DNA of 40,493 nucleotides from Propionimicrobium sp. PCR01-08-3. GTDB taxonomy: Bacteria > Actinomycetota > Actinomycetes > Propionibacteriales > Propionibacteriaceae. The stretch spans positions 1 through 40,493 of the forward strand of contig NZ_CP127391.1 in assembly GCF_030286045.1 (NCBI RefSeq), given 5' to 3'. The position numbers and the translations under genes were made by a program. The notes under the pieces are model-generated. The model ran no database searches, was not told the origin of the DNA, and saw only the letters and a list, made by a program, of their open reading frames with translations. Below are positions 968 through 22,341 of this stretch, one piece after another. Numbering within the stretch: the first letter of the stretch is position 1; the number at the start of each line of letters is the position of its first letter.

Positions 968-3010
968 ATGCGCATCCAGGTTGACGGCGTCGATTATGCG
1001 CCGGCACGTCCACGCAAGATCGGTGTGGCAATCACCACCCGCAATCGCCGCGACGCGTACAGTAAGTCGCTCGCGGCCTGGATTAAGCATCTGCCCATCG
1101 GCGTGACCTTGGTCGTGGTTGACGACGCGAGCGAGGTGCCCGTCGATGTGCCGATCTGGGCCACGCTAATCCGCTTCTCCGAGAATCGGGGCGTGGCCGC
1201 GGCCAAGAATGCCGGTATCGCGGCGCTCATGGATGCCGGTTGCACCGATCTCTTTCTTGCCGACGACGACACCTACCCTCTCGTAGATGGCTGGGCCGAG
1301 CCGTACCTGTCGAGCCCTGAGCCGATCGCCTGCTACATGTGGGGCGATCCGGTTTATCAGGACGACGACGTGCTCGGCTATTCGTGGCCGCACGGTTGCC
1401 TCGTCTACGCCGAGCGTTCGGTTATTGACCGCATCGGCGGCTGGTGGGGTGCCGGCGTCTGGGGCGGCGAGGATTCCGATTTTCTGCGCCGTGCCCACAA
1501 CGCCGGTTTGTCGCGCTGCGAGTTCCAGGACGTGCACCATGGCCGCATCTTCGAGGCTCTGGACGAGCACGGCAGCGTGGAGTCTTCAGTATCTGAGGAT
1601 GTGCGCCGTGTCTGGCGCGCAGACCTACTGGAGGCACGCAAAGACTCTGCAGAGTTTGTTCCCTACCGCGAGCATGTGGCGACGGAAGCCAGCCCGGTTT
1701 TGAGCGTGCTGGTGCCGTCCGTAGCATCACGGCGAGACACTTTCCTGCCCTCAATTCTCGATCAGCTCTACGGCCAGCACGAGGCACTGTCCGATGTCGA
1801 CCGGAGCCGGATCGAGATCCTGACTCTCGTCGATGCGAAGGGCGTCTCGCTCGGGCAGAAGCGCAACGACATGATCAACCTCGCGCGCGGCCGCTACGTC
1901 GTGTTCGTTGACGACGATGACCGGCTCGAAGACGACTATCTCGTAGCCCTACTTGAGGCTGCCAATTCCGGCGCCGACGTGATCACTTTCCACGTCTCGG
2001 TCTCCACTGATGGCGGAAGCCCGACCGTCTGCAAATACGGGCTCGAATATGAGCATAACGAGAACATCGCGAACGAATTCCACCGCATCCCGAACCACAT
2101 CTGCATGGTCCGCCGGGATCTCGCTTCAAGGTCGCCGTTCCCGGACAAGAGTTTCGGCGAGGACTCGGAGTACGCAGCACGGCTAAGGCCCCTGCTGCTG
2201 TCCGAGCACAAGATCGATCGCGTCCTCTACCACTACGACTATGTGCCGTCGCAATCCGAAACACGGGTCGTCAACGAGGCGCAGTCCCGTATCGGGAACG
2301 CGACCCGGAAGCCAACCGCCGACCTGGTGATCCTGTCGAAGGCCGACACCGCAAAGTTGCGCGAGATGACGCAGCACACCATCGACACGGCCCGCGAGAA
2401 TGCTGGACGCAATCCCGATCCGCTCGTGATCAACGTGATCGTCATTGAACAGACTGAGGGCGTCCGCTATCGGGGCGCGACGACCGTCCACATGCCAGGA
2501 CCATTCGCTTACAACAAGTTCATGAACAACGGAGCCAGGCGAGGTTTCGCCCCCTGGGTCGTGTTCGCCAACAATGACCTGGAGTTCGAGCCCGACTGGC
2601 TCGCGGAGCTTCTCGCAGCCGACCATGAGCTTGTTTCCCCGGTCAATCCGGGCGACGACCGTCAGCGCGGCTTCACCGTCAACGAGTCCGGCTGGACGAA
2701 CGGTCGGCATTTCTGTGGCTGGTGTTTCATGATGAAACGCAGCCTGTGGGAGGAACTACACGGGCTGGACGAGGACTTCATTTTTTGGTGCGCAGACGAC
2801 GTTGTCATTGAGCAGGCGCGGGCTGTCGGCGTGAAACCCATGCTGGTGTCGGCCGCGAGGGTGAAACATCTGACGTCGAAAACGGCAGGCACCAGCGTCC
2901 CCGACGAGCTGACGTGGGGAATGGTCCGCCTGTTTGAGGACAAGTACGGCGTGAAGAAGTTCGAGAACGACTCCCGATATACGGCATGGAAGCGGGCGAA
3001 CCCGAGATGA
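968..3010 (+). CDS. Glycosyltransferase with three GT2-like modules
   Basis: A 680-aa protein that reads as three tandem GT-A (family 2 type) modules. Module 1 (about 15-220) has GVAITTRNR, VVVDDAS and the acidic triplet D99-D101. Module 2 (about 240-430) has LSVLVPS and D315-D318 in VFVDDDD. Module 3 (about 475-680) has INVIVIEQ and N535-N536-D537, a weaker metal site. GT2 enzymes move a sugar from a nucleotide donor. In several mycobacteriophages, glycosyltransferases coded beside capsid or tail genes decorate virion proteins; that role here is inference from position. It overlaps the next glycosyltransferase gene at ATGA (3007-3010). Fusion of three modules in one chain is unusual. Confidence 0.82.
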   Translation: MRIQVDGVDYAPARPRKIGVAITTRNRRDAYSKSLAAWIKHLPIGVTLVVVDDASEVPVDVPIWATLIRFSENRGVAAAKNAGIAALMDAGCTDLFLADDDTYPLVDGWAEPYLSSPEPIACYMWGDPVYQDDDVLGYSWPHGCLVYAERSVIDRIGGWWGAGVWGGEDSDFLRRAHNAGLSRCEFQDVHHGRIFEALDEHGSVESSVSEDVRRVWRADLLEARKDSAEFVPYREHVATEASPVLSVLVPSVASRRDTFLPSILDQLYGQHEALSDVDRSRIEILTLVDAKGVSLGQKRNDMINLARGRYVVFVDDDDRLEDDYLVALLEAANSGADVITFHVSVSTDGGSPTVCKYGLEYEHNENIANEFHRIPNHICMVRRDLASRSPFPDKSFGEDSEYAARLRPLLLSEHKIDRVLYHYDYVPSQSETRVVNEAQSRIGNATRKPTADLVILSKADTAKLREMTQHTIDTARENAGRNPDPLVINVIVIEQTEGVRYRGATTVHMPGPFAYNKFMNNGARRGFAPWVVFANNDLEFEPDWLAELLAADHELVSPVNPGDDRQRGFTVNESGWTNGRHFCGWCFMMKRSLWEELHGLDEDFIFWCADDVVIEQARAVGVKPMLVSAARVKHLTSKTAGTSVPDELTWGMVRLFEDKYGVKKFENDSRYTAWKRANPR

Positions 3011-3618
3011 GAATCGCTGTCGGCGTGGTCGCGGTTTTATCCCGCTTAGAGCAGGCGATGCGGCTGTCAACCGAGGTGGGCGCCGAGGTTCTGCAGGTCG
3101 ACGACGGCGGATATGGCGAGCGCGTCAATCATCAGGAAACCCTCAGAAGGCTGGCTGGGACGGGCGCTGACGTGCTGGTGATGCTGGAGGATGACGCGAT
3201 CCCCTGCACTGGTTTCCGGAGCGCCCTGGACGACTATTTGGTGGCCAGGATGCGCCCGGAGATCGTGTCCCTGTATTTGGGTACCGGTCGTTGGGCGGGT
3301 ACATCGCCGAGCGTTCAGGGTCCGAGAGTCCAGGCCCTGATTGATCGCGCTGACGCCCGCGGCGATAGGTGGATTTTCGCTGACGCGTTATGGCATGCGG
3401 TCGGTTTGGCGATCCCTCAGTGCATTGCCGGATCACTACTCGATTACTTGGCAGGCGACCCGTCGCCGACCGATGAGGCGATCACTCATTGGGCCCGGAA
3501 GCGCGGCGAAAAGATCGCGTATACGCATCCGAGCCTGGTCGACCATCGGGACGATGAGCGTGTGGTGGACCAGCCGGAGGACTTCGTCCCACGGCATGCG
3601 ATCCGATTCAGGGGGTAA
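3007..3618 (+). CDS. Second glycosyltransferase-like protein
   Basis: 203 aa starting at the ATG that overlaps the previous stop; an in-frame ATG at 2986 is less likely because it lies inside the upstream gene. The N-terminus (IAVGVVAVLSRLEQAMRLS), the acidic MLEDDAIP motif near residue 60 and a central HAVG segment resemble small GT-A glycosyltransferases that start from an aligned nucleotide-sugar site. It is coupled to the three-module enzyme before it, so the two probably act on the same glycan. The acceptor is unknown. The call is by motif only. Confidence 0.6.
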   Translation: MRIAVGVVAVLSRLEQAMRLSTEVGAEVLQVDDGGYGERVNHQETLRRLAGTGADVLVMLEDDAIPCTGFRSALDDYLVARMRPEIVSLYLGTGRWAGTSPSVQGPRVQALIDRADARGDRWIFADALWHAVGLAIPQCIAGSLLDYLAGDPSPTDEAITHWARKRGEKIAYTHPSLVDHRDDERVVDQPEDFVPRHAIRFRG

Positions 3619-18285: not shown

Positions 18286-18618
18286 ATGGACGCAACTCAA
18301 GCGCTCACCGTCATCATCTCGCTGGCGCTCGTCCCCGCCCTCGTGTGGGGGTTAGCTAAATCTAAGTTGACCGGCGACCAAAAGCGGCTCATCGTGCTGA
18401 TCGTCGCGATCCTGCTCGGCGTCATCCAGGCCGTCATCACCGGCATCATTGTGCTGCCCGACGCCTGGCTGGACGCCATCGTCCGCGGCCTGATCATGCT
18501 CGCCGGCGTCGTCACCACCTCGCAAGCCATGTACGTGCTGCTGCGGGGCAAGCTGGGCGGCGACAGCGGGGACGATACTGACGCACCCGAGGCTCCTGAA
18601 CGCGCGCTCATCGAGTGA
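18286..18618 (+). CDS. Holin
   Basis: 110 aa with two to three hydrophobic segments: about 5-24 (ALTVIISLALVPALVWGLA), 34-57 (RLIVLIVAILLGVIQAVITG) and 66-88. A short charged acidic tail ends the protein (GDDTDAPEAPERALIE). It sits right after the endolysin with AAAGGAG before its start and is followed by a strong terminator, so it is the likely membrane pore former that times lysis. Confidence 0.8.
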   Translation: MDATQALTVIISLALVPALVWGLAKSKLTGDQKRLIVLIVAILLGVIQAVITGIIVLPDAWLDAIVRGLIMLAGVVTTSQAMYVLLRGKLGGDSGDDTDAPEAPERALIE

Positions 18619-18628
18619 TTTGATAGTT

Positions 18629-18671
18629 GAGGCCCACCATCGCATCTAGCGGTGGTGGGCCTCATTTTTTT
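18629..18671 (+). terminator. Strong intrinsic terminator after the lysis genes
   Basis: GAGGCCCACCA with TCGC (18629-18643) pairs with GCGG plus TGGTGGGCCTC (18649-18663) around ATCTA: 15 pairs with one G-T, followed by seven T (18665-18671). It closes the late plus-strand unit and faces the end of the minus-strand operon. In the minus direction there is no T run after the stem. Confidence 0.92.
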
Positions 18672-18675
18672 GCGT

Positions 18676-18807
18676 CTACCCTGCGACCCTCACAATCAGC
18701 GGGCGCACCTTCGCCCGACTCGCAGCCAGCGCAGCTGCGATCTGCTGTACCTCATGCGGCGTATCCTCCAGCTCGGGGTGCGCCGCCACCAGCGTGTCGT
18801 CCGACAT
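18676..18807 (-). CDS. Small ORF at the end of the minus-strand operon (possibly truncated)
   Basis: 43 aa from ATG 18807 (MSDDTLVAAHPELEDTPHEV, then an Ala-rich helix and RPLIVRVAG). The frame remains open upstream to 18859 and reads VYSAPLIVHM before this Met, but no ribosome binding site is seen. It may be the C-terminal remainder of a longer gene whose front was replaced when the HNH gene entered, or a weakly translated small protein. Function unknown. Confidence 0.4.
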   Translation of the reverse strand: MSDDTLVAAHPELEDTPHEVQQIAAALAASRAKVRPLIVRVAG

Positions 18808-18815
18808 GTGCACGA

Positions 18816-19277
18816 TCAGCGGCGCGCTATAAACTTGCTTATATCGACACGCGACCAGTCAATTTTTCGATTTCTGAGCATCGCCGCCGGGGAGTCCTTG
18901 CGGCGCGTCTCGTATGCGTCTGGAAGTAACCCGTTCCTGATGGCGTCTTGACGGTTCTCTTGGCAGGTCCCCCACCTTAAATTTACAAGTCGGTTATCTG
19001 TCTTTACGTCGTTATAGTGCAAAGCCATGCATCCATCCGGACGCGGGCCGACGAATGCCTCTAACACCAACTGGTGCACTTTGCGCGACTTTGACGTTCC
19101 GTCTCTGCAAAGGTGTACCTGCTGGTGCGTGGAATGCCCTGACTTATGCGGCTTGAGAACTCGGCCGACTTTCTTGGCGCCTTGCTTTGTGACTCGATCC
19201 AGTGATCTAACTCGGCCGAGATCGGACACCTCATATAACCCCTCGTATTCAACAACGGGCAACCACAATTCTCCCAT
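18816..19277 (-). CDS. HNH homing endonuclease (NUMOD4-HNH)
   Basis: 153 aa from ATG 19277; the open frame reaches 19364 but that part overlaps the upstream gene. The N-terminal NUMOD4-like motif is LWLPVVEYEGLYEVSDLGRV. The HNH part has VHQLVLEAFVG, ALHYNDVKTDN and NLRWGTCQENRQDA. Such enzymes cut a specific site and spread their own gene. It sits 14 bases after the regulator gene and its base composition is lower in GC than the neighbours, so it looks like a recent insertion in this operon. Confidence 0.85.
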   Translation of the reverse strand: MGELWLPVVEYEGLYEVSDLGRVRSLDRVTKQGAKKVGRVLKPHKSGHSTHQQVHLCRDGTSKSRKVHQLVLEAFVGPRPDGCMALHYNDVKTDNRLVNLRWGTCQENRQDAIRNGLLPDAYETRRKDSPAAMLRNRKIDWSRVDISKFIARR

Positions 19278-19291
19278 TTTCAGAACCGCTT

Positions 19292-19690
19292 TCACTCGCC
19301 GTAGAACTTGAACCACACGTGCCCGCCAAACTCCCAGCGGACCCGAAACGCGATAGCCCTCCAAAACGACGCAGGTAGACCAGTTTCAGCACAATCCGCA
19401 TCCACACGTGGAACCTCGACAGTCGGCCAAGCCGACTTGTCCAAGTCCTCAACATCATCAATGTCGTCCAGGCCGATCTGCCCAAGCGCCGAACTGATCA
19501 TGTCGTCAGCCGACTGCTCAGCCGAAACTTCGAGGCTCGCCAACTCCAAGCCGCGACGCTCAGGCACAGGCGCGTCCCCATCTTCCCAGCGCCGTATGGC
19601 CCGCTCAGACTCAAGCCCCCAATGGTTCGCGAGCCAGCCAGTTGACAAGCCGAGGCTTTCACGGATCGTCTTAAACTCTGCACCATTCAT
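19292..19690 (-). CDS. Aca2/YdiL-like (former DUF1870) HTH regulator
   Basis: 132 aa starting at ATG 19690 with AAGGAG about 8 bases before it. Residues 1-45 form an HTH (FKTIRESLGLSTGWLANHWG, then RAIRRWEDGDAPVPE). The C-terminal end (GLPASFWRAIAFRVRWEFGG) matches the tail of Aca2/YdiL-type proteins, where Pro-Ala-Ser-x-x-Arg-Ala is frequent. Aca proteins repress the anti-CRISPR operons they belong to by binding an inverted repeat in the promoter. Here it is the second gene after an unknown small gene, and the promoter has a perfect palindrome. Family call by motif only. Confidence 0.65.
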   Translation of the reverse strand: MNGAEFKTIRESLGLSTGWLANHWGLESERAIRRWEDGDAPVPERRGLELASLEVSAEQSADDMISSALGQIGLDDIDDVEDLDKSAWPTVEVPRVDADCAETGLPASFWRAIAFRVRWEFGGHVWFKFYGE

Positions 19691-19703
19691 TTTCTTGTGC
19701 TCC

Positions 19704-20078
19704 TTATCGGGTCCACTCGGCATCTTCCCAGGCTTGATCGACGCGAGATTCGATCAACCGTGCGATGCCTTTGGTCGTCTCGTCGGCGCGCATCCAAGCG
19801 TTGAAGTCGGCCTTGATCGCGGCGACCGCTTTCGCCTGATCAGCGCTGATGCCGTCGAGTACCTGGGCGATAGTTTCGGGCGAGTAGTACTCGATCCGGT
19901 TGGCGAAAGTTGAGCTGTGATGCCATTCACCGAGATTCAGGTTGAGGGCGAGCGCCTCGGCCTTGGTTAGCCCGTGCTTCGCGACTTTGGGAAGCTGACT
20001 CCAGGGCATCCGCCCATCAATCTCGGCCCACTTGGCGCGACGGCTCTTGCTGTTTCCGGTGCTGTACGTGCTGGCCAT
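19704..20078 (-). CDS. Unknown 124-aa protein, first gene of the minus-strand operon (anti-CRISPR candidate)
   Basis: Starts at ATG 20078 with AAAGG about 8 bases before it. Ser/Lys/Arg-rich at the N-terminus (STGNSKSRRAKWAEIDGRMP), then LTKAEALALNLNLGEWHHSS, a Tyr pair (IEYYSPETIAQVL) and a helical, charged second half ending DQAWEDAEWTR. I recognise no family. It is expressed from a regulated promoter and is followed directly by an Aca2-like regulator, the arrangement used to find anti-CRISPR genes by association. An anti-CRISPR role is a hypothesis; other host-takeover roles are possible. Confidence 0.7.
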   Translation of the reverse strand: MASTYSTGNSKSRRAKWAEIDGRMPWSQLPKVAKHGLTKAEALALNLNLGEWHHSSTFANRIEYYSPETIAQVLDGISADQAKAVAAIKADFNAWMRADETTKGIARLIESRVDQAWEDAEWTR

Positions 20079-20141
20079 GATCTGTGCCTTTCGGTCTCGG
20101 GTATGTCCTGCCGGACTGCCCTTCGTCTTGCTGACATCTCT

Positions 20142-20171
20142 ATTGTAATACCTAAGTTAGGTACCAAGCAA
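20142..20171 (-). promoter_or_regulatory. Promoter of the minus-strand operon with palindromic operator
   Basis: Read on the minus strand: -35 TTGCTT (20166-20171), 18-base spacer, -10 TACAAT (20142-20147). The spacer holds TACCTAA-G-TTAGGTA (20149-20163), a perfect dyad. A repressor bound here would block RNA polymerase. The Aca2-like protein coded in the same operon is the natural candidate for autoregulation. Confidence 0.65.
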
Positions 20172-20232
20172 CCCCAACCCCCCCTTTTCCCGAACTACTT
20201 TCCACGGGCGGGTGGAGGGGTGGGGAGTTCGG

Positions 20233-20251
20233 GGGCACATCGAGGGCACAC
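20233..20251. repeat. Left pair of putative integrase arm sites
   Basis: GGGCACAT (20233-20240) and GGGCACAC (20244-20251) are spaced 11 bases apart, one helical turn. Similar copies lie on the other side of the attP core at 20409 and 20421. Arm-type binding by the integrase is inferred from this symmetry. Confidence 0.45.
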
Positions 20252-20321
20252 TTCCTTGCGCTCGCTTGGCTCTCGTTACGCTCCATTGCGCTACATCGGG
20301 CATAGTCAGACCCCACTTACC

Positions 20322-20373
20322 TGGTACACCGCGTGGGACTCGAACCCACAACCCGCTGATTAAGAGTCAGCTG
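20322..20373 (-). other. attP: attP core: 3' half of a tRNA-Lys(CTT) gene
   Basis: On the minus strand this reads as the anticodon stem-loop with CTCTTAA (anticodon CTT), variable loop, T arm (GTGGG, TTCGAGT, CCCAC), acceptor strand GCGGTGT, A and CCA. There is no matching 5' half, so it is not a tRNA gene. It is the sequence a phage carries to recombine with, and restore, the 3' end of the host tRNA-Lys gene. It lies between putative arm sites and right before the integrase gene. Confidence 0.85.
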
Positions 20374-20408
20374 TTTTACCCCGTTTGACTAGGGGTTTGA
20401 TACCCTGA

Positions 20409-20428
20409 GGGCACATATAAGGGCACAT
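20409..20428. repeat. Right pair of putative integrase arm sites
   Basis: GGGCACAT occurs at 20409-20416 and again at 20421-20428, spaced 12 bases, mirroring the pair at 20233-20251 on the other side of the attP core. Confidence 0.45.
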
Positions 20429-20449
20429 CGTCAAAAAGGGCTAGTCAGG

Positions 20450-21517
20450 ATGGCACGCATAGATCGCTGGTACACAGTGCAGGTGGTGGGTGGCAAGCGC
20501 CGCAAAGTCCGTACGGCGCAGTACGGCAAAGGCTTGCAGTGGGAGGCGCGGTGGCGCGACTCCGCTGGCGTGCAGCGGAAGAAGCGCTTCCAGTACGCCG
20601 ACGACGCAGACGACTGGCTCGCCGAGCAGCGCATGTCGCCGAAGGCGCAGGCCGCGAAAACCACCCTCGCCGACCTCTGGGATCCATGGATCGCCGGAAA
20701 AGACGCCCTCAAGCCGAAGACCCGCGCAGGCTACGAGTCGAGCTGGCACACACACATCGAGCCCGAGCTGGGCGCCCGGCTCGTATCCACACTGACGGCC
20801 CGCGAGATCCGAGACTGGTACCGTCGCATCGGATCTACGGACGCCCGACGCTGTGCGCTGGTAGTCATCAAGGGCATGCTCAAGCTCGCAGTGGAGGACG
20901 GCATGCTGCCCGCCAATCCGGCCGCCAACCTATCGGGCGGGCAGTCGGTGAAGCGCCGCGTCGAGTCCCTGGAGCCCGATCAGGTGGACGCGCTGGCGAA
21001 GGCGTGCGTCGAGGTCGGCATCGAGGCTGAGTTTTGGACGCTGCTGGCGGTCGGGCTGCGGCTCGGCGAGATGGCCTCGCTCGCGCCGAGGAACGTCGCC
21101 AAGGCGGGCTCAGGCTACGTGCTACACATCGAACGCACCGTGCAGCGCATCGGCGGGCAGACGATCTACGGATCGCCGAAGTCGGGCCATCCGCGCGACG
21201 TGCCCTGCCCGGCTTGGGTCGCCGAGCGATTCCGAACCTCGGGGCCGCTGTGTCTGCCCGGCTCCGAAGGCGAGCCTTGGGTGTCGGAGACCTGGCGCAC
21301 ACCATGGGAGCAGGCCCGGAGAGCCGCCGGACTGCCCGAGCTGCACACGCACGACCTGCGGCACGTCTTCGCTGCCCGGCAGATCGAGGCCGGCACCGAT
21401 TTCAAGACTCTCCAAGCCGTCATGGGGCACTCGAAGCTGTCTATAACTTTGGACTTATACGGCTCCATGGCCAGGCCGGACCTCTCGAAGGTCGCGGACA
21501 TCACCGGCCGATCATGA
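20450..21517 (+). CDS. int: Tyrosine integrase
   Basis: 355 aa. The N-terminal arm-binding domain (1-60) starts RIDRWYTVQVVGGKRRKV, followed by a SAM-like core-binding domain (about 65-160) and a catalytic domain. Catalytic residues are visible: R204 (GLRLGEM), H301 and R304 (HDLRH), H327 (MGHS) and nucleophile Y337 (DLYG). It would recombine attP with a host tRNA-Lys gene; attP lies just upstream. A terminator follows at 21538. It places the phage among temperate viruses. Confidence 0.95.
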   Translation: MARIDRWYTVQVVGGKRRKVRTAQYGKGLQWEARWRDSAGVQRKKRFQYADDADDWLAEQRMSPKAQAAKTTLADLWDPWIAGKDALKPKTRAGYESSWHTHIEPELGARLVSTLTAREIRDWYRRIGSTDARRCALVVIKGMLKLAVEDGMLPANPAANLSGGQSVKRRVESLEPDQVDALAKACVEVGIEAEFWTLLAVGLRLGEMASLAPRNVAKAGSGYVLHIERTVQRIGGQTIYGSPKSGHPRDVPCPAWVAERFRTSGPLCLPGSEGEPWVSETWRTPWEQARRAAGLPELHTHDLRHVFAARQIEAGTDFKTLQAVMGHSKLSITLDLYGSMARPDLSKVADITGRS

Positions 21518-21655: not shown

Positions 21656-21832
21656 ATGTCAGAGGATCGTGCAAGAGTATCGAACATGAGTTCGGATAAG
21701 TGGTCACACCTCACGGTCAGCAACCTCGGCACACTCGCCCGCCTGCTGGGTATGCCAGCGTCAACGCTTCTCGATTGCGTGCTCAGCGGCATCGAAAATC
21801 TCATGCGGACTGACTCCCAGCACTCGGCATAA
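21656..21832 (+). CDS. Small ORF overlapping the repressor gene tail
   Basis: 58 aa starting at ATG 21656 with AGGA a few bases before it. The middle (LTVSNLGTLARLLGMPASTL) looks like the C-terminal helices of an XRE-type HTH domain. The last 72 bases lie opposite the 3' end of the repressor gene. It may be a decayed regulator remnant or a chance ORF. Confidence 0.3.
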   Translation: MSEDRARVSNMSSDKWSHLTVSNLGTLARLLGMPASTLLDCVLSGIENLMRTDSQHSA

Positions 21833-22006
21833 GTCCATGAACGCGGGCATGGGGATGTCACGTTTTGCGTTTAGGTAGTTCAGCACACTCGTGCGCCCCA
21901 GCCCTGACAATGAGGTCAACTGCTCAACCGTGATTTGACGCCGGGCGCGCTGCGCCCGAAGCTCGGCCGCCACGGCCGCATTGAATGAATCTCCATACTC
22001 GGTCAT
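21761..22006 (-). CDS. XRE-family immunity repressor
   Basis: 81 aa from ATG 22006. One HTH domain fills the protein: AELRAQRARRQITVEQLTSL, SGLGRTSVLNYLNAKRDIPM and the C-terminal helix LCRVLGVSPHEIFDAAEHA. There is no dimerisation or protease domain, so it would not respond to RecA in the lambda way. It is divergent from the Cro-like gene and lies next to the integrase, the usual place of the lysogeny repressor. A -10 box six bases before the ATG and no ribosome binding site suggest a leaderless mRNA. Confidence 0.8.
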   Translation of the reverse strand: MTEYGDSFNAAVAAELRAQRARRQITVEQLTSLSGLGRTSVLNYLNAKRDIPMPAFMDLCRVLGVSPHEIFDAAEHAIEKR

Positions 22007-22012
22007 ACACGT

Positions 22013-22041
22013 AATGTACACCTATGCAGACTAAAGGTCTA
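22013..22041 (-). promoter_or_regulatory. Leaderless repressor promoter
   Basis: On the minus strand: -35 TAGACC (22036-22041), 17-base spacer, -10 TACATT (22013-22018). The expected start of transcription falls on the A of the repressor ATG (22006). The -10 overlaps GTGTAC, which also occurs at the divergent promoter. Confidence 0.5.
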
Positions 22042-22107: not shown

Positions 22108-22341
22108 ATGCACACCAACCAAGAGACCGGCGCGAAGGTCGCAGAGGCGATCCGCCGGGCAGATCGCACCCAAGCTTGGGTCGCCGACAAGGCCGGTATT
22201 TCTACCGGCACCCTACGAAAGAAGTTGCGCGGCGGTACGTCGTTTACCGTCGCTGAATTGCGCGACATCGCCGAGGCCCTGAATGTCTCGCCGAGCTCCC
22301 TGCTACCCGTTGAATTCGCGGAATCGCGGGCTGCGGCATGA
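22108..22341 (+). CDS. Cro-like XRE regulator
   Basis: 77 aa with one HTH: GAKVAEAIRRADRTQAWVAD, KAGISTGTLRKKLRGGTSFT and the last helix LRDIAEALNVSPSSLL. It is divergent from the repressor and is the first gene of the rightward early transcript, as Cro is. It would repress the repressor promoter and favour lytic growth. It overlaps the next gene at ATGA. Confidence 0.75.
   Translation: MHTNQETGAKVAEAIRRADRTQAWVADKAGISTGTLRKKLRGGTSFTVAELRDIAEALNVSPSSLLPVEFAESRAAA

Follow-up and report, generated by a model that had tools for sequence, protein, structure and literature searches.

The stretch of DNA considered in this study (the window) is the entire 40,493-base second contig of the two-contig genome of Propionimicrobium sp. 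PCR01-08-3. It encodes phage genes for capsid, terminase, portal, protease, tape measure, endolysin, integrase and antirepressor, and I will be concerned mainly with a run of minus-strand genes located between the holin gene and the integrase gene, both of which lie on the plus strand. The run consists, in order, of an open reading frame (ORF) of 124 amino acids (aa), a helix-turn-helix (HTH) regulator, a NUMOD4-HNH endonuclease and a 45-aa ORF. An initial annotation, made from the sequence alone, had proposed that the first two genes are an anti-CRISPR gene (acr; CRISPR, clustered regularly interspaced short palindromic repeats) and an anti-CRISPR-associated gene (aca).

Both of these ORFs are present where the initial annotation placed them. 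The candidate anti-CRISPR gene (19704-20078, minus strand) would encode a protein of 13.9 kDa with an isoelectric point of 6.8, and it looks like coding sequence: under a model trained on 14 of the window's genes, its frame scores +0.219 bits per codon, as compared to -0.44 and -0.47 for the other frames on the same strand and -0.05 to -0.73 on the opposite strand. The 132-aa regulator (19292-19690, minus strand; score +0.141), a candidate autorepressor of the Aca2/YdiL type by family, profile and fold, follows on the same strand after a gap of 13 bases, the gene order of an acr-aca pair within a phage. If translation began instead at an in-frame ATG at 19723, the regulator would have 143 aa and overlap the 124-aa gene; the start was taken at 19690, where an AAGGAG site precedes it.

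A core promoter candidate for the run can be read by eye on the minus strand (20142-20171), with TTGCTT (20171-20166) as its -35 element and TACAAT (20147-20142) as its -10 element, spaced by 18 bases. The spacer is filled by a perfect palindrome, TACCTAA-C-TTAGGTA (20163-20149 on the minus strand), with arms of seven bases about a single central base. An inverted repeat thus lies inside the putative core promoter and makes a candidate operator; Aca proteins are reported to bind inverted repeats in core promoters (PMC8434428, PMC9410906). When up to 3 mismatches are allowed, the window has a single instance of the pattern TACCTAA-N-TTAGGTA (20149-20163), and such a pattern is present somewhere in 12 of 100 shuffled windows, so the weight of the palindrome lies in its position. 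Without mismatch, the palindrome has one site in the 3.29-Mb genome, and the reversed control has none.

Family and fold of the regulator

The resemblance of the regulator to the Aca2/YdiL family, claimed in the initial annotation, is real: relatives, profile and fold agree on it, though the Pfam score is below the cut-off. A search of PDB sequences returned four distinct sequences with expectation values (E) of 10 or less, all of them Aca2 (E 0.02-0.95). All nine members of an alignment that included the regulator and IMG/VR relatives match the Pfam family Aca2_YdiL (PF08965) at E<=0.1, and one relative (L073) scores 29.6 bits, above the cut-off. The label DUF1870 is attached to the relative in three of the eight plasmid records that carry one. 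When the profile of the regulator was aligned by hhalign with Aca2 of Pectobacterium phage ZF40 and YdiL of Escherichia coli, the result was 96.7% over 92 columns, chiefly in the HTH half.

An AlphaFold2 model of the regulator, built from nine sequences, has a predicted local distance difference test (pLDDT) score of 95.1. The first ten structures ranked by Foldseek are chains of 2ox6, 7vjo, 7ezy, 7vjp, 7vjq, 7b5j and 1s4k, representing SO3848, Aca2 and YdiL. These alignments cover both domains (about 131-145 columns, probability 1.00, template modelling score by query length 0.57-0.75), while from rank 11 on it is mostly the HTH domain alone that matches. The model accordingly has an N-terminal HTH and what is predicted to be a C-terminal dimerisation domain of the Aca2 type. 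PDB sequences, hhalign and Foldseek alike place the regulator in the Aca2/YdiL group rather than in some other HTH family, and I conclude from the modelled structure that it has the Aca2/YdiL fold and belongs to a distant branch, being about 20% identical to Aca2. The same two-domain fold is found in YdiL (1S4K) and SO3848 (2OX6), which, unlike the regulator of the window, are described in PMC8434428 as lying outside prophages and without known acr.

The C-terminal segment GLPASFWRAIAFRV, which the initial annotation had taken as part of this resemblance, is conserved in the actinobacterial branch, P106, A107, R111, A112 and R116 being invariant in 6 of 6 sequences. The profile alignment with Aca2 and YdiL ends before this segment is reached.

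The host Cas9 locus and the spacer match

Of 57 genomes searched for cas1, 21 gave a match, that of the phage's host among them. The locus around the host cas1 encodes Cas9 (1137 aa), Cas1 and Cas2 and includes an array in which 24 repeats, the first of them degenerate at its start, separate 23 spacers 28-29 bases long; PADLOC labels the proteins Cas9, Cas1_II and Cas2_II. Residues 5-1130 of the host Cas9 align with A. naeslundii Cas9 (AnaCas9; E 1.4e-253), the protein also aligns with CdCas9, and the RuvC and HNH motifs are retained in the alignment. Just upstream of cas9 there is an anti-repeat, followed by hairpins, that resembles a trans-activating CRISPR RNA. Duplex energy alone was discarded as a guide to this RNA, other stretches being equal or better, and the position of the anti-repeat was relied on instead. 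The ORFs of the host CRISPR stretch showed no Csn2 or Cas4 gene and the nearest enzymes are II-C, on which grounds I read the locus as type II-C. The initial annotation had left the presence of CRISPR-Cas in the host to be checked; the very genome that carries the phage has a Cas9 locus that appears complete.

Spacer 16 of this array is identical at 28 of 28 bases to the window at 3436-3463 (plus strand), inside a glucosyltransferase-like gene (2986-3618). The number of such matches expected by chance, assuming even base frequencies, is 2.6e-11. A self-targeting spacer in a genome with its own CRISPR-Cas system is what one would look for in support of an acr-aca pair, although such a pair does not depend on it. 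The repeat starts with GCTGGGG, similar to the ACTGGGG given by PMC6488586 as the start of the scaffold after the guide in CdCas9, and so the side of the protospacer adjacent motif (PAM) would be the 3' flank, CGCCGACC.

The remaining spacers yielded little. When the array was compared by BLAST to phages and plasmids, matches had E of 1 or more only. A scan with the array of the window and 104 loci gave the exact match and 13 others with 3-6 mismatches, none of which was accepted as a protospacer. Of the 13, 12 are in loci that had been fetched by an array match (scored across genomes with at most two candidates per genome), and the other (L097) is in a locus fetched by its portal gene. Searches with spacer 23, the first 22 bases of spacer 20 and the first 20 of spacer 16 returned the array itself or nothing, as did a search of 198 genomes with 28 of the 29 bases of spacer 10 at up to 3 mismatches. 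Of the 22 spacers other than spacer 16, five come down to 8 mismatches in the window, as compared to 11 of 230 shuffled spacers at 8 or fewer, a hint of an excess against simple shuffles that do not preserve dinucleotides. Spacer 10 bears some likeness to the holin gene, from which it differs at 9 of 29 bases.

Proposed function of the operon

The known system closest in organisation is acrIF8-aca2 of phage ZF40, where a small ORF is likewise followed by a regulator of the Aca2 fold and the operon likewise stands between lysis genes and integrase. The protein gp31 of ZF40 matches AcrF8 (PF25699). By my reading, the ZF40 promoter consists of TTGCTT, GTTCGC-GATT-GCGAAC and TATAAT, in the same order as in the window, so that in both a palindrome stands between the -10 element and an identical -35 element. 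The two systems differ in that the regulators are only about 20% identical, the operator arms differ in sequence and gap, the first genes are unrelated by families, the host system here is II-C, and operon and integrase share a strand in ZF40 and lie on opposite strands here. The AcrIIC4-aca2 and AcrIIC5-aca2 loci also compare, each with a small unrecognised ORF upstream of an aca2-type gene in a genome with type II-C Cas9 (PMC6282205). Those loci are proteobacterial, and the comparison of the 124-aa protein was by PDB and family searches only.

These features suggest that the run serves a phage of temperate type as an accessory operon resembling acr-aca2. The genes would be carried on a single transcript, and the 124-aa protein, produced early from the promoter at 20171-20142, would inhibit the type II-C Cas9 of the host. 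The 132-aa protein of the Aca2 fold, made from the same run, would bind the palindrome between the -35 and -10 elements and turn the promoter off. As a result, the phage could persist in a cell whose array holds a perfect guide against it. I hold to this account with confidence and doubt in about equal measure; that the 124-aa protein is an anti-defence protein of some kind is more likely than not. The initial annotation had left the target as CRISPR-Cas or another host defence; a narrower claim is now possible, with the host's own type II-C Cas9 as the first candidate. None of the outcomes it had named as contrary to its proposal was encountered, whether a regulator from another HTH family, a clear other function for the 124-aa protein, or a host lacking CRISPR-Cas.

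Picking out a small gene ahead of an aca-type gene, in combination with a self-targeting spacer, is a published route to anti-CRISPRs. The same selection yielded AcrIIC4 and AcrIIC5 (PMC6282205), and in a study of Aca5 all 9 of the 9 candidate families tested inhibited some system, 8 of 10 chosen genomes being self-targeting (PMC7648647).

Several observations weigh on the other side. Regarding the regulator, its score to PF08965 is 15.6 bits against a cut-off of 23.8, the E values of the ten best Foldseek matches are modest (1e-3 to 2e-2), its nearest relatives (described below) stand without a small-ORF operon, and one survey found a known acr upstream of only 35 of 1223 Aca2-like proteins (PMC9410906). 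The promoter, which the initial annotation had attributed to the operon and which is discernible by eye, is weak: a strict scan for sigma-70 promoters over 18600-20460 gave no sites, TTGCTT having 3 of the 6 bases of the -35 consensus. Regarding the target, the phage is likely targeted by the host Cas9, but the flank CGCCGACC breaks, at positions 3 and 5, the NNRHHHY rule of CdCas9, which is a different enzyme from the host Cas9, and no second protospacer was found in the phages, plasmids, loci and genomes searched. The inhibitor could also be encoded by other genes of the phage or the chromosome. Finally, the 124-aa protein has no relative in phage records, plasmids or, by peptide pattern, IMG/VR and genome contigs; its AlphaFold2 model is unusable (pLDDT 49.9) and too poor for a structure search; and its residues from about 49 to 115 show a weak likeness, always in one register, to the N-terminal end of aldehyde dehydrogenases, a feature that an anti-CRISPR would not lead one to expect. 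It was this last likeness that led me to lower my confidence from slightly above even to even.

The alternative that survives best, itself rather unlikely, is an anti-defence operon with a different target, either another defence or a CRISPR type of other hosts, with the coexistence of Cas9 and spacer having some other cause. Regulator and operator imply an Aca-like operon without naming its target, and on pGOR1, a plasmid of Gordonia, a relative of the regulator overlaps a cas5 gene that stands alone, but the matching spacer in the host makes Cas9 the simplest target.

It is unlikely that the phage survives without the 124-aa gene, owing to a non-working PAM, a silent Cas9, the state of the phage DNA, its presence in a fraction of the population or some other inhibitor, the operon serving an unrelated purpose such as superinfection exclusion. 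The misfit of the flank to the CdCas9 rule speaks for this possibility, as do two glycosyltransferase-type genes that follow the capsid gene, one of them containing the protospacer. However, close type II-C orthologs differ in PAM (PMC9433092), the phage proteins scanned (a part of all) included none named as a DNA-modifying enzyme, the position of the glycosyltransferase genes next to the capsid gene suggests glycosylation of protein, and the Aca2-like operon would be left unexplained.

A toxin-antitoxin or other addiction pair, with the toxin first and an HTH antitoxin second, would fit the gene order, the small size of both genes and their residence on a mobile element, and the regulator does weakly match a model of MqsA-family antitoxins (16.9 bits against a cut-off of 61.8), with HTH domains of antitoxins appearing in the fold list from rank 11. 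These antitoxins align over about 50-60 columns, far fewer than do the SO3848, Aca2 and YdiL chains that occupy all of the first ten ranks, and the 124-aa protein matched no toxin family in the library scans, a result with which a novel toxin remains compatible. I regard a pair of this kind as quite improbable.

The 124-aa protein itself matched no family above the cut-off in Pfam, PHROGs, NCBIfam or PADLOC, and no anti-CRISPR in these or among PDB sequences, the anti-CRISPR content of each library being unchecked. Pfam also gave a weak match to LA-virus_coat, which at 17.3 bits against a cut-off of 25 was disregarded. There was no match at E<=0.001 in 195 other relatives. AcrIIC4, for comparison, had one detectable homologue when it was described (PMC6282205). 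Two wider draws of genomes gave matches at E<=0.01 in 11 of 396 and 11 of 394 genomes, the genome of the phage itself counted. In the first draw, 6 of the 7 matches read (of 11) are aldehyde dehydrogenases by sequence (L023-L026, L028, L029), and the seventh, L027, which appears in both draws, is a 373-aa ORF of another kind. In the second, 6 of 10 others are aldehyde dehydrogenases in the same register (L119, L121, L122, L123, L125, L126), L118 and L027 are other proteins, and the matches of L120 and L124 contain stops and give no alignment better than E 0.09. The likeness to these actinobacterial enzymes is found at 19704-19934 of the window, about residues 49-124. The gene that the initial annotation called unrecognised therefore has no clear other function, though it is weakly like aldehyde dehydrogenases in part.

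The likeness may reflect descent or chance. A derivation from the N-terminal segment of an aldehyde dehydrogenase, or mimicry of it, together with an action on host metabolism or on oligomerisation of that enzyme, is very improbable: the two draws and an NCBIfam match to HpaE on the same part (E 0.021) speak for it, but the best E of the first draw, 7.2e-6 in one genome of 396, is marginal over the draw, the alignment to E. coli AldA (not chosen by likeness), in the same register, is equalled by 124 of 1000 shuffles and that to GabD (likewise not chosen) by 864 of 1000, Pfam with its filters on shows no such match up to E 10, and the enzymes are abundant, are alanine-rich in the matched segment and have their catalytic part outside it.

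Relatives of the regulator and other features of the phage

The closest sequence family of the regulator consists of actinobacterial DUF1870/HTH proteins of plasmids and phages (31-43% identical), whose neighbours vary and include no known anti-CRISPR among those read. The nearest are two chromosomal copies in one genome, G005 (L014:7692-8330 and L015:7819-8460), which are 41-43% identical, have 212-213 aa owing to an extra C-terminal part, and each stand beside what appears by eye to be a divergent cold-shock-like gene. One copy adjoins an integrase remnant. In another genome (G070), the relative follows a small ORF with no Pfam match. The neighbours of the relatives examined in a mycobacteriophage, Streptomyces, Mycobacterium and IMG/VR are not constant and are mostly of no known function.

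On plasmid pGOR1 of Gordonia sp. YC-JH1 (L111:2992-4082), the Aca2-like regulator, scoring 22.5 bits to PF08965, just below the cut-off, has a 4-base overlap with a cas5 gene (PF09704, E 3e-17). The incomplete gene table of the plasmid lists no further cas gene, and a Cas5 on its own could serve as an anti-CRISPR. A similar regulator is carried by another Gordonia plasmid (G. sihwensis, H45).

A survey from 2019 describes, in the part available, only proteobacterial loci among the published AcrIIC-Aca pairs, with three actinobacterial type II-C Acr-Aca loci inferred by computation only (PMC6739104). No work on inhibitors of AnaCas9/CdCas9-type enzymes was found by title and start of abstract, in a literature scope that leaves out most subscription journals. 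I offer tentatively, at somewhat less than even strength, that the 124-aa protein represents a new anti-CRISPR family directed against this branch of Cas9, paired with a distant actinobacterial branch of Aca2, possibly resembling a fragment from the N-terminus of aldehyde dehydrogenase, and marking unexplored actinobacterial anti-defence genes. If the protein does inhibit Cas9, the actinobacterial DUF1870 branch becomes a marker for anti-defence genes, and if the family is indeed new, the regulator branch would flag such genes in phages and plasmids, for example the lone cas5 of the Gordonia plasmid. The locus makes available one gene, one enzyme and one natural pair of guide and target.

Behind the regulator lies a gene that the initial annotation overlooked, encoding a 153-aa NUMOD4-HNH endonuclease by family matches (18816-19277, minus strand; coding score slightly negative at -0.086) and possibly a free-standing homing endonuclease. 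The run ends with the 45-aa ORF (18676-18813, minus strand; +0.193). Where the whole minus-strand run lies in the window, the related phage E6 has just a 38-aa ORF.

The contig is probably circular, opened at the major capsid gene, since an AAGGAG site in the last bases of the window would stand at the correct spacing ahead of the ATG at base 1. When bases 1-24000 were searched for near-identical DNA, matches over 3% of the query at 80% identity came from six phage records, in which three propionibacterial phages are represented twice; the host is therefore probably a member of the Propionibacteriaceae. The major capsid gene is immediately followed by the two glycosyltransferase-type genes (968-3618), the second containing the protospacer; they possibly serve in glycosylation of virion proteins.

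The tyrosine integrase (20450-21517, plus strand) is recognised by library matches. Beyond it are a candidate CI-like HTH repressor (21761-22021, minus strand) and a Cro-like HTH protein (22108-22341, plus strand); the Aca2-like regulator was set aside as a lysogeny repressor, the phage having this separate pair. Beside the integrase gene, a sequence resembling transfer RNA (tRNA)-Lys(CTT) (20322-20398, minus strand) is probably the phage attachment site, attP. The search pattern for tRNA-Lys(CTT) was found in the phage contig only, at this position. A chromosomal fragment (G000:C1:296384-296428, L020) has by eye about 31 consecutive bases in common with it and is not called as a tRNA, and the normal chromosomal attachment site seems to be missing or altered. 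The host chromosome also contains two portal-like matches of equal score (G000:C1:2084211-2085326 and 1627964-1629079), which are probably further prophages and could carry an inhibitor too.

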